From an uncultured Acidimicrobiales bacterium (lineage in GTDB: Bacteria; Actinomycetota; Acidimicrobiia; Acidimicrobiales; Aldehydirespiratoraceae), in assembly GCA_958296055.1 (NCBI GenBank), contig CATQHS010000001.1:1584277-1648276 (forward strand): a stretch of 64,000 nt of DNA, in the 5' to 3' direction. Below, piece after piece: positions 2 to 46,591 of this stretch (position 1 is its first letter; each line of letters starts with the position of its first letter). The notes beneath the pieces were generated by a model. It made no database searches. It was not told where the DNA came from and saw only the letters and a list, made by a program, of their open reading frames with translations. The position numbers and the translations under genes were made by a program.

Positions 2-70
2 ATAAACACCGCCGTCGCCACCCGAGGCGGCGACGTGGCCGGGGTGATCTCCCACACCGACCATGCCCCG
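2..70 (+). pseudogene. IS3-family transposase (OrfB) fragment
   Basis: Reading from base 2, the frame gives INTAVATRGGDVAGVISHTD. This matches the integrase-core segment of IS3-family OrfB transposases just before the second catalytic aspartate (usual form AVATRGG..GVI.HTDRGSQY). The expected DRGSQY is degraded and the frame then runs into unrelated sequence, so only a relic of the transposase is present. Its upstream part lies outside the window. Confidence 0.55.
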
Positions 71-39632: not shown

Positions 39633-41075
39633 ATGAAGCTACGTGTCACTGACTTCCAAGTTGACGATAATGCGCCGTTCGACAATGACTGGATGAACCG
39701 GCGGCCGGTGATAGAAGACTGGACGACCCGCTACATTGACGAGATTCAAGGCCCGTGCGTGCTAGCTGTCGATGGCGGCTACGGAACGGGTAAGTCGGCT
39801 ATTCTGAAAATGTGGGCGGCGTACCTTCGCAGCCTCGGACGACGCAATAGGGTAGCAGAAATTAATATCTGGGAAGCGGCTTACATGGACAACCCGCTCT
39901 TCGCATTATTGGCAGAATTAAAGCAGCAAAATATAATCAAGTTAGAGGACGATAAATTACTAAGACTGCTCGCTATGACCGGGCGCACCATTTCTCAGAT
40001 CATCAGCGATGTTTTTCATATAGATATAGCAGCAATTAGCGCTCCAACTAGTCAGGATAGGATCGTTGACGGGTTGGAACGCTTTGAGCAGGATAAGAAA
40101 ATTGTTCAAGCGTTTGCTGACAGTTTGACTGCAAAGCTTTCAGACGGCAAACTCGTATTGTTCGTAGATGAGCTTGATAGGTGTGATGCTGATTATGCTG
40201 TCCGATTCCTAGAAGTCATCAACCTGCTTTTCAAATCTCCCAATGTTATTTTTGTAGTTGGCGTCAATCTATCCCAACTGGATGCTGCTATTCAGCAAAG
40301 ATACGGATGGGACGCAGAGGCATATAGACGACGATTTATTGATCTTGTGTTGAATGTGCCGCCCAATGCGAGTGACAGTTTGAAGCAATATTTTGATAAG
40401 GTATTGAGCCGATTGGGTTTGCAAGATCAGCCGTATAGGGCGCTTGACTTTATTCGTGACTCGTTGCTTGGCAGGCCAGATGAGTCAATGAATTCTACAG
40501 CCGCAGCGGCATTGGCTGCGGATGCTTCTTTGAGAGATTTACAGCAGTTCGCTAACCAATGGCTAATTTTCAATCGCCGGATAGATGATATCGTGTCTAT
40601 GGGCGGGGGTGACAAAGACGACGTGTCAGAAATAGGGACTGTTCTTCTACTGGCTAAGCATCTAGCACCGAATAAGTATCATGGCATGTTAGAAGGCTCT
40701 GTTACGGATGCTGAGGTTCTAGATTCTTTGAACCAGGCACTCAAATCACGGTTCGATATTTACACTTCTCCGATGCTTGCAACACTCCAAGCCGCTTTGT
40801 CCTTGTGTGTGATCGTGGCTGGCATGCCCGATAGGAACTACGATATTAAGATGCTTTTGCACCGCGGAGAATTGAGAGACAAGCGACGATCAACGATTTT
40901 AATGAATAAGAGTCAAGATGACAGCCGACGGTCACTTTATGAACAACTAATCGACAGCCCATACAAAAATAGATTGCATGACATGCAACAACTTAATTTT
41001 CAACAACTAGACGGGATTGTGTCCGCACTAGAAGGGTGTCAATCCGGGGCTTTGGGCCACTTGCGGGGAATCTAG
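39633..41075 (+). CDS. KAP family P-loop NTPase
   Basis: The 480-residue product has Walker A VDGGYGTGKSAILKMWAAYL (residues about 46-66), Walker B KLVLFVDELDRCDADYAVRF, and the arginine-rich sensor region AYRRRFIDLVLNVPP, typical of KAP ATPases. The usual transmembrane insertion between the Walker motifs is not evident, so this is probably a soluble member. Codon use is more AT-rich than the flanking chromosome. KAP NTPases occur in mobile and defence loci, often with an effector gene. The nearest gene is the NYN protein 210 bp upstream. Confidence 0.75.
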   Translation: MKLRVTDFQVDDNAPFDNDWMNRRPVIEDWTTRYIDEIQGPCVLAVDGGYGTGKSAILKMWAAYLRSLGRRNRVAEINIWEAAYMDNPLFALLAELKQQNIIKLEDDKLLRLLAMTGRTISQIISDVFHIDIAAISAPTSQDRIVDGLERFEQDKKIVQAFADSLTAKLSDGKLVLFVDELDRCDADYAVRFLEVINLLFKSPNVIFVVGVNLSQLDAAIQQRYGWDAEAYRRRFIDLVLNVPPNASDSLKQYFDKVLSRLGLQDQPYRALDFIRDSLLGRPDESMNSTAAAALAADASLRDLQQFANQWLIFNRRIDDIVSMGGGDKDDVSEIGTVLLLAKHLAPNKYHGMLEGSVTDAEVLDSLNQALKSRFDIYTSPMLATLQAALSLCVIVAGMPDRNYDIKMLLHRGELRDKRRSTILMNKSQDDSRRSLYEQLIDSPYKNRLHDMQQLNFQQLDGIVSALEGCQSGALGHLRGI

Positions 41076-43495: not shown

Positions 43496-44127
43496 TCAGA
43501 AACTCGACTTAGTCCATCCCGCCGGTGCCCGCAACATGATCCCGCTGGCCGTAACAACCGGGTCAGGAAGCCGGTTGCCTCGAATGGTCCTTTTCAAAAT
43601 TCCGAAGCTGGCGTGAACTGCACCCCTGAGTTCGCTGGAGCGCCTCATGGGCGGAAATGCGACCATCAACCTTTTGTTTGGGAAACGATTCCTAACTGAT
43701 TCAAGGGCAGTTACGAGATCGCCGTCCCCGGAGACAATGAGGGCGATGTCAAAGCGGTCGTCATAGGCATCGTTGAGGAGACGCACCGCAATGTTGACAT
43801 CAGTCCTCTTCTCCTCGTATCTGGGCCAGCGGTGTCCACAGTTGCGACATTCGACATCCCGTTTTTGAGGAAGAATCCAAAATCTATCTCAATGCCTACG
43901 CGAGCCTGAAGAGCGTCGATGTAAGTGCTCTGCCGCTCTTCCTTGCCAGGTTGATCGCGAACCCGAGTTGTGAAGTAGCGGACTAACTCGAGTCGTTGGT
44001 TCGATTCGAGGAGTGACTGGCTCATCGCGCCGAGATCAAGCCAGCGGGAACTACCCAACTGAGCATCCATCAACCCGTGGTACAGGTTGAACCCGTCGAT
44101 GTAGGCGATGGCTCGCTGAGCGCCCAT
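43496..44127 (-). pseudogene. NYN-domain protein with a poly-A frameshift
   Basis: The first frame (44127 to about 43862) gives QRAIAYIDGFNLYHGLMDAQ...LVRYFTTRVRDQPGKEERQS...EIDFGFFLK. The second frame continues with RDVECRNCGHRWPRYEEKRT DVNIAVRLLNDAYDD and IALIVSGDGDLVTALESVRN to 43496. Restoring one A in the A5 run (T5 on plus, 43862-43866) joins the two parts into an LabA-like NYN protein with a CxxC zinc knuckle. The change may be a true mutation, a sequencing error, or slippage. The first Asp block (YIDGFN) and the SGDGD block are intact. Confidence 0.7.
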
Positions 44128-44231: not shown

Positions 44232-44330
44232 TTGCTCTTGCCCCCTCCCCCCGGTACACTGTCCTCATCCTCGCCGGGGTGAGTAGCCCCGGCTCGACGG
44301 CCCCGGCTGCAGCCGGGGCCGTTACGCGCT
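44232..44330 (+). ncRNA. promoter-hairpin module 3
   Basis: TTGCTC (44232-44237), a 17-nt spacer and TACACT (44255-44260). Hairpin A is GCCGGGG (44273-44279) with CCCCGGC; hairpin B is ACGGCCCCGGC-TG-CAGCCGGGGCCGT style (44297-44322). It is oriented away from the NYN gene at 43496-44127, with its promoter about 105 bp from that gene's start. No gene follows on the plus strand before the convergent SDR gene. Confidence 0.5.
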
Positions 44331-45607: not shown

Positions 45608-45712
45608 TTGCCGGTTGTCTCACGCTGTGGTACCGTGGGGGCAATCCCCCCAGTCCCTTCGGTGGCTGGGCAAGAGCCCGCCGCAAGGCGGGCTCTTGAG
45701 TTTTACCAGCCC
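45608..45712 (+). ncRNA. promoter-hairpin module 4, upstream of NYN gene
   Basis: TTGCCG (45608-45613), a 17-nt spacer and TACCGT (45631-45636). Hairpin A is GGGGG-CAAT-CCCCC (45637-45650). Hairpin B is AAGAGCCCGCC-GCAA-GGCGGGCTCTT (45672-45697) followed by GAGTTTT, terminator-like. The bases after it are the reverse complement of the 3' end of a NYN gene. The NYN start codon is at 45789. Confidence 0.6.
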
Positions 45713-45728
45713 TTTGGCTTGCGGATTT
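45615..45728 (+). repeat. 114-bp inverted repeat, left arm
   Basis: Reverse complement of 46471-46584 with six mismatches by eye. It contains the promoter -10, both hairpins and a relic of NYN codons EIRKPKGW on the minus strand. Confidence 0.85.
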
Positions 45729-45788
45729 CAGACTTGCAAGGCGACTGACTTGTTGGCGAACTGGACTTGGCGGATGTAGGTTTAAACA

Positions 45789-46496
45789 GTGCCGATCAGG
45801 GCCTTTCCTCCGTCCATAGCCGAAAGTGACCATCTGGCATTGAATGATCCCAGCGGGACAGGTCCAAGAACGATCGTCTATATCGACGGATACAACTTCT
45901 ATTACGGTGCCGTCAGAAAAACCTCGTACAAATGGATCGACTTTGAGGCTCTGTGCCGACTCCTTCTACCGGAAGATCGGATTGTCAAGATCCGGTATTT
46001 CACTGCTCTGGTTCAGGACCGGCCCGACGACCCTCAAAAGACCGTACGCCAGTTGACCTACTTGCGGGCGATAGCCACCCAATCTCTTATTGAGACCCAC
46101 TTCGGTCATTTCATCACCAGACCTGCCAGTATGCTGCTGGTTGATCCCCCCAGCACGGGGCCACGGTTCGTCAAGGTCTTCAAAACCGAAGAGAAGGGCT
46201 CAGATGTCAATCTCGCCACTCACCTGTTGCTTGATGCCTTCAAGAATCGGTGCGAGATTGCTGTCGTGGTCAGCAATGACTCGGACCTCGCCGAAGCCGT
46301 TCGCGTCGCGCAAAGCGATCTGGGCATCCAGGTGGGCCTGATCAATCCACATCCGCGCAAGAGGCGGTCCCGGAAGCTCAACGAACTTCCGTGCCTATTC
46401 TTCAAGCAAATCCCTAAACGAGCACTCGCTGATGCTCAACTGCCTGACATCATCCGCGACGCTCAAGGAGAAATTCGCAAGCCAAAGGGCTGGTAA
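45789..46496 (+). CDS. NYN-domain RNase-like protein
   Basis: The GTG at 45789 opens a 235-residue frame (an ATG at 45844 is the alternative). NYN blocks: GPRTIVYIDGYNFYYGAVRK with the first catalytic Asp, KTEEKGSDVNLATHLLLDAF with the second acidic site, and CEIAVVVSNDSDLAEAVRVA, where SNDSD replaces SGDSD. A short C-terminal tail ends in EIRKPKGW. The gene sits inside a 114-bp inverted repeat; a promoter-hairpin module precedes it and another points at its 3' end. It is likely an RNase of the LabA/PIN-like group. Confidence 0.75.
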   Translation: MPIRAFPPSIAESDHLALNDPSGTGPRTIVYIDGYNFYYGAVRKTSYKWIDFEALCRLLLPEDRIVKIRYFTALVQDRPDDPQKTVRQLTYLRAIATQSLIETHFGHFITRPASMLLVDPPSTGPRFVKVFKTEEKGSDVNLATHLLLDAFKNRCEIAVVVSNDSDLAEAVRVAQSDLGIQVGLINPHPRKRRSRKLNELPCLFFKQIPKRALADAQLPDIIRDAQGEIRKPKGW

Positions 46497-46584
46497 AACT
46501 CAAGAGCCCGCCTTGCGGCGGGCTCTTGCCCAGCCACCGAAGCAACTGGGGGGATTGGCTCCACGGTACCACAGGGTGAGACAA
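46471..46584 (-). repeat. 114-bp inverted repeat, right arm
   Basis: Pairs with 45615-45728. It includes the last nine codons of the NYN gene (EIRKPKGW and stop), hairpin B, and the -10 of module 5 on the minus strand. Confidence 0.85.
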
Positions 46585-46591
46585 TCATCAA
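46502..46591 (-). ncRNA. promoter-hairpin module 5, antisense to NYN 3' end
   Basis: On the minus strand, TTGATG (46591-46586), a 17-nt spacer and TACCGT (46568-46563) are followed by a weakened hairpin A and then hairpin B with a GCAA loop (46527-46502). Transcription would converge on the NYN gene. Read the other way, hairpin B can terminate the NYN mRNA just after its stop codon at 46496. Confidence 0.5.

Follow-up and report, generated by a model that had tools for sequence, protein, structure and literature searches.

In the type III toxin-antitoxin systems ToxIN, CptIN and TenpIN, a small-RNA gene adjoins the gene of an RNase, and the parts follow in the order promoter, RNA, Rho-independent terminator and RNase on plasmids and phages (PMC5086642). 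AbiF with its RNA RCd22 is an experimentally supported type III-like analogue in layout, in which an RNA with a sigma70-type promoter, structured motifs and a terminator lies directly upstream of the toxin on a prophage (PMC12373285). In AvcID, also type III-like, an adjacent RNA inhibits a non-ToxN enzyme, the nucleotide deaminase AvcD, in a defence role (PMC10511110). HEC-09 is one of the Hma-embedded candidates (HECs), some of which are antiviral and most of which await validation (PMC12988326), and it correlated with phage susceptibility in one survey (PMC12447246). PADLOC lists HEC-09 as a protein model only, and an adjacent RNA is apparently unreported in the literature searched. Additionally, an NYN-domain RNase found in a type III CRISPR locus has been proposed to act on small RNAs (PMC11346440).

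We analyzed a locus in a 64,000-nucleotide stretch (the window) from an uncultured bacterium of the order Acidimicrobiales, where an NYN RNase gene of the HEC-09 family stands between two copies of a putative small-RNA gene. We consider it probable that enzyme and RNA form a toxin-antitoxin or abortive-infection module, type III-like, with the RNA as antitoxin. ToxIN, AbiF with RCd22 and AvcID would then be the closest proven analogues. As in type III systems, a small-RNA gene adjoins an RNase gene, with the RNA as the presumed antitoxin; most non-actinobacterial members of the family show the same order of parts, some NYN loci contain RNA repeats, and plasmids and phages carry them. However, the predicted fold is NYN rather than ToxN-, CptN- or TenpN-type, the RNA differs in sequence and structure, usually only one RNA unit is present, and gene order is variable. 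AbiF/RCd22 differs in toxin family and RNA motif, and NYN loci also occur in convergent and divergent orders. AvcD is a deaminase, whereas here the adjacent RNA would inhibit an RNase, and in contrast to the CRISPR-associated enzyme the NYN protein has a single conserved RNA gene as its partner.

The NYN protein

The NYN protein scores 45.1 bits against the NYN domain PF01936 (gathering cut-off 24.2), and its residues 27-235 align with positions 3-202/203 of the PADLOC HEC-09 profile, a full-length match with an E value of 2.5e-38. It also matches phrog_7929. Homology sets in only at residue 24-28, and translation may therefore begin downstream of the GTG at 45789. An NYN RNase fold is predicted from the AF2 model (pLDDT 91.3), whose best PDB matches are 2qip and the NYN domain of MARF1; no ToxN-type structure is present among the PDB matches listed, the best of which are NYN domains. 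Since this fold lies outside the classical type III families, our claim is that the locus works like a type III system, not that it is one. A search of the PDB by sequence gave nothing informative. Residues D33, E135, D139, D164 and D166 are invariant or nearly so in the family. HEC-09 itself is a candidate defence family only. We note that the homologues on four Klebsiella plasmids (H64, H66, H70, H79) are annotated as 6-hydroxy-3-succinoylpyridine 3-monooxygenase HspA, probably a misannotation.

Two small-RNA genes in an inverted repeat

The inverted repeat is 114 bp long. Its arms, at 45615-45728 on the plus strand and 46471-46584 on the minus strand, have exactly six mismatches between them, in agreement with the roughly six differences given in the initial annotation, and a weaker extension brings the match to 134 nt at 90%. 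The remaining inverted pairs in the same 6 kb are only 20-31 nt long with 70-83% identity, so the arm match is far beyond chance. Further copies of the arm are found nowhere else in the 3.3-Mb genome. On the opposite strand of the left arm we recovered the relic of the NYN tail that had been reported there, the last eight codons and the stop (Table 1). The left arm reads from its sequence as a recent inverted duplicate that took in these codons, and the copying by inversion proposed earlier holds for the segment containing the NYN 3′ end.

Table 1. Features of the NYN locus and its surroundings (window coordinates)
Feature	Position	Strand	Remarks
Second NYN homologue	43499..44127	-	frameshifted pseudogene, 1.7 kb from intact NYN
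Candidate small RNA of second NYN	44250..44326	+	divergent, upstream; two GC-rich hairpins
Left small-RNA putative promoter	45608..45636	+	TTGCCG, 17 nt, TACCGT
Left small-RNA gene (putative)	45643..45705	+	inverted duplicate upstream of NYN, reading toward NYN; R1 73.7 bits, E 6e-18 (R1 training row); fold
NYN tail relic	45703..45729	-	last 8 codons + stop (EIRKPKGW*), copied with left arm
NYN-domain RNase gene	45789..46496	+	235 aa from GTG 45789; family HEC-09 / phrog_7929; catalytic acids conserved
Right small-RNA gene (putative)	46495..46556	-	convergent with NYN; R1 76.5 bits, E 1e-18 (R1 training row); alignment, covariation, fold
Right small-RNA putative promoter	46563..46591	-	TTGATG (46591-46586), 17 nt, TACCGT (46568-46563)

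What had been overlooked is that each arm has the makings of a small-RNA gene, with promoter-like hexamers, a start at AAUCCCCCC, a first hairpin, a terminator hairpin and a U-run. From the outer end inward, both arms contain TTGnnG, 17 nt, TACCGT, AATCCCCCCAG, a UUCG-closed hairpin, a 12-bp hairpin and AGTTTT, and the second hairpin is a perfect 12 bp (CAAGAGCCCGCC/GGCGGGCTCTTG). The RNA would be about 62 nt, composed of a C-rich 5′ end, a UUCG-type hairpin and the terminator hairpin. In the right copy, AAUCCCCCC and hairpin 1 are followed by a terminator hairpin at 46528-46501 and a U-run that overlaps the NYN stop codon, whose complement sits inside the terminator T-run. In the left copy the terminator consists of a hairpin at 45671-45698 and AGTTTT. 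The right putative promoter has 7 of 12 matches, and its position is conserved across the RNA family. A consensus promoter and terminator scan of the window made no calls; the cut-offs used exceed what such hexamers and the interrupted T-run can reach, so we count this null result neither way. In Acidimicrobiia RNA promoters, including those of the window (45615, 46584), a TTGTCRCA-like element is conserved between the -35 and -10 hexamers; it is reminiscent of the PafBC RecA-NDp motif of actinobacterial DNA-damage promoters.

On this sequence evidence the inverted repeat is an RNA-gene duplication, with one copy upstream of NYN and one convergent downstream. A transcript across both arms is predicted to pair arm with arm in the minimum-free-energy fold, in keeping with the large stem that the initial annotation envisaged. 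In an alignment of 19 arms from the order (A3), 7 of the 21 pairs predicted have changed in a compensatory manner, and relatives with the close NYN gene have the same element at its 3′ end, usually once. Together, the compensatory changes and the conserved element beside NYN make the arm best read as a small-RNA gene and not as a transposon end. The initial annotation had also suggested that arm, NYN and arm could form a mobile cassette, or an invertible segment. The near-perfect 114-bp inverted arms would suit such a unit, as would the patchy NYN family with its members on plasmids and prophages. However, the unit has no transposase, the arm is kept as a covarying RNA, most relatives have a single arm, and no second arm-NYN-arm unit was found among 198 relatives, of which G004 comes nearest with a pair of arms in direct orientation. 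Mobility is therefore most improbable, and we dropped the cassette with inverted ends because the unit is unique both in the genome and among these relatives and its arm is conserved as RNA. A unique arrangement is also what the initial annotation had named as counting against its proposal.

A conserved RNA family beside NYN genes

A covariance model built only from the 19 arms of the order (R1) was run on 88 loci fetched by NYN protein similarity, comprising 522 kb from plasmids, one prophage and genomes that span many phyla. At E<0.01 it matched 72 of the 88 NYN loci, a count that includes two contigs (L203, L204) that also supplied training rows. Nearly all of these matches directly adjoin NYN, and almost none fall elsewhere in the 522 kb. 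A second model built from the 72 matches (R2) recovers the RNA at most of the remaining loci as well as other classes within the order, and places it beside NYN in 25 of the 32 closest viral-contig homologues. R2 also has a weak match at 5-52 (minus strand) of the window, probably by chance (18.8 bits, E 0.013).

In the 72 RNA sequences, 93.7% of cells pair (70.5% when shuffled), and 20 of the 21 pairs vary on both sides. Covariation amounts to a score of 0.640, compared with 0.212 for shuffled and at most 0.108 for slid alignments. Because the model itself served to align these sequences, the independent A3 alignment is the cleaner, if smaller, support. A sigma70-like promoter at constant distance precedes 65% of the RNAs, as opposed to 4.6% in upstream control windows. 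The range of the RNA takes in Chloroflexi and Acidobacteria as well as plasmids of Leptospira, and E. coli plasmids show related layouts; cmscan against the Rfam 15 families found no match over the RNA at E up to 1. The family is apparently new, widely distributed, strongly covarying and outside Rfam. 6C RNA is a C-rich small RNA of actinobacteria with hairpins, and in these respects resembles the arms; however, its covariance model (RF01066) matched neither the arms nor anything in 61 genomes of the order. Identity with 6C RNA or another Rfam family was dropped on these null results from the arms, the 61 genomes and Rfam 15.

Since the second hairpin and its T-run form a terminator, the element might be nothing but a bidirectional terminator of NYN or of a neighboring gene. 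The conservation of the first hairpin and the 5′ sequence, the promoter at a fixed distance and the placement of the RNA also in upstream codirectional and divergent positions make this extremely unlikely, and a simple terminator was set aside in view of the promoter, the first hairpin and the conservation at the 5′ end.

The 5′ end AUAUCCCCCC is the best-conserved unpaired part of the RNA, and the hairpin sequences drift with compensation. This pattern, along with a linkage of RNA and RNase that persists through changes of gene order, could point to an RNA-guided or RNA-cofactor RNase, where the RNA loads NYN and its fixed C-rich 5′ end directs the enzyme to G-rich sites such as ribosome-binding sites. 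However, the 5′ end is not variable, so the RNA is not a programmable guide, and broken NYN genes with intact RNA as well as orphan RNAs fit inhibition at least equally well. We regard targeting of this kind as rather unlikely. A broader proposal, that these are bacteria-wide RNA-protein defence modules in which the NYN RNase is both inhibited and targeted by a dedicated small RNA whose C-rich 5′ end is fixed, seems to us distinctly doubtful; if true, NYN with its targeting RNA would be an RNA-directed RNase unrelated to CRISPR, Argonaute and TnpB.

Gene order and copy number

The NYN family occurs on 449 plasmid records, in a Mycobacterium prophage and on viral contigs, and many of the plasmids, in E. 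coli and Klebsiella, are only 3.5-5 kb. A modelled RNA was mapped beside 104 NYN genes; it is upstream and codirectional in 64, downstream and convergent in 28, and upstream and divergent in 12. The NYN tree requires at least six switches between these orders. Promoter, RNA, terminator and NYN is the commonest order, and in codirectional upstream copies the terminator directly precedes the start of NYN. Of the two copies in the window, only the left one places RNA and terminator before NYN. RNA and NYN thus remain neighbors even where position and strand have changed; this points to an RNA-protein partnership that acts in trans and not to a leader, an antisense or a shared terminator. Sequence comparison establishes that an RNA gene of conserved structure has long accompanied NYN at these loci and that the catalytic acids are conserved; the NYN fold is supported by prediction.

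Regulation of NYN by the RNA, as attenuator or antisense, was also considered, as was a role of NYN in processing a small RNA that has targets of its own. The terminator of upstream codirectional copies immediately precedes NYN, convergent copies lie antisense to its 3′ end, orphan RNAs occur, and the CRISPR-associated NYN enzyme was proposed as a crRNA trimmer (PMC11346440). Nevertheless, no one cis mechanism serves upstream, convergent and divergent positions, and we hold such roles to be possible but unlikely. Cis-antisense control as a general mechanism was dropped because the RNA also occurs upstream of NYN, either codirectional or divergent.

With one RNA copy in each of two orders, the window is plausibly an intermediate between them, and the locus shows how such modules may change their layout. 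Multiple RNA units at one NYN gene were also observed at L197, L214, L250, L251, L121, L123 and G004; all of these except L197 have two copies, as does the window. In G004 (contig C10, L007), two direct copies of the RNA gene (91021-91085 and 91297-91361) lie beside one NYN gene, the outer one with an NYN-tail relic. Tandem RNA repeats occur at some loci, such as L197, and most loci are single-copy. On this 4.6-kb E. coli plasmid (pRHB40-C03_3), about three to four hairpin repeats of roughly 33 bp (556-726) precede a terminator, after which NYN starts. Of 5426 E. coli genomes, 10 contain the same stretch of about 830 bp with 95-100% identity, always on a plasmid. Tandem repeats suspected by eye in a plasmid of E. 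coli SE11 (L359) were not confirmed by TRF. The two copies of L250 (1002-1073 and 2920-2993) are codirectional, 1.9 kb apart and have near-identical promoters, and only one adjoins NYN.

Unpaired RNAs and broken NYN genes

Within the order, 21 of 57 strong RNA matches have no NYN gene nearby. Such copies were found in G359, G229, G267, G148, G017, G388, G357 and others (L064-L087, L189-L194), and in G017 and G388 an NYN-tail relic is kept beside the RNA. They may be decayed modules or independent RNAs. Five genomes (G033, G322, G013, G003, G045) have a broken NYN gene with an intact RNA, although some seeming frameshifts may be assembly errors of draft genomes. Conversely, 53 of 86 NYN matches in the order have no R2 match under strict filters; at most of the R2-negative loci examined, a diverged, unmodelled RNA-like element with two hairpins or one is visible. 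No RNA-like element was seen at an NYN gene with two stop codons (G010:C4, L129).

A proposed toxin-antitoxin or abortive-infection module

In the reading that we favor, a dedicated RNA of about 62 nt would be transcribed from its own promoter beside the NYN RNase, bind the enzyme and hold it inactive. When transcription stops, upon phage infection or plasmid loss, the RNA would decay, and the freed RNase would cut cellular or phage RNA. Transcription in this organism, RNA-protein binding, toxicity, neutralization and defence are steps that we infer from the sequences. An RNA antitoxin and an RNase toxin would fit the RNA-terminator-RNase layout, the occasional repeats, the carriage by plasmids and phages, the broken NYN genes with intact RNA and the RNA-only loci. 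On the other side, NYN-less RNAs could also reflect an independent role of the RNA, convergent and divergent loci do not have a shared-transcript layout, and most loci hold one RNA copy where type III antitoxins are usually repeat arrays.

No link of NYN or HEC-09 to a small-RNA partner appeared in the open-access papers searched; subscription journals and preprints lay outside this scope, so priority is uncertain. Catalogues treat HEC-09 as a one-gene defence candidate, and if its partner is a small RNA, protein-only cloning or annotation misses half of the module. If the proposal is correct, the principle of RNA antitoxins would extend to a further, unrelated RNase fold. The RNA family also lends itself to direct experiment in a laboratory strain.

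Neighboring genes

A second, frameshifted NYN homologue in the window is possibly the remains of another module. The candidate RNA beside it resembles the divergent RNA class of relatives (L134, L135, L139) and is recognized by neither R1 nor R2. At 39633-41075 the window also encodes a KAP P-loop NTPase that matches PADLOC PDC-S20 (E 1.4e-53), a candidate defence gene near the module.
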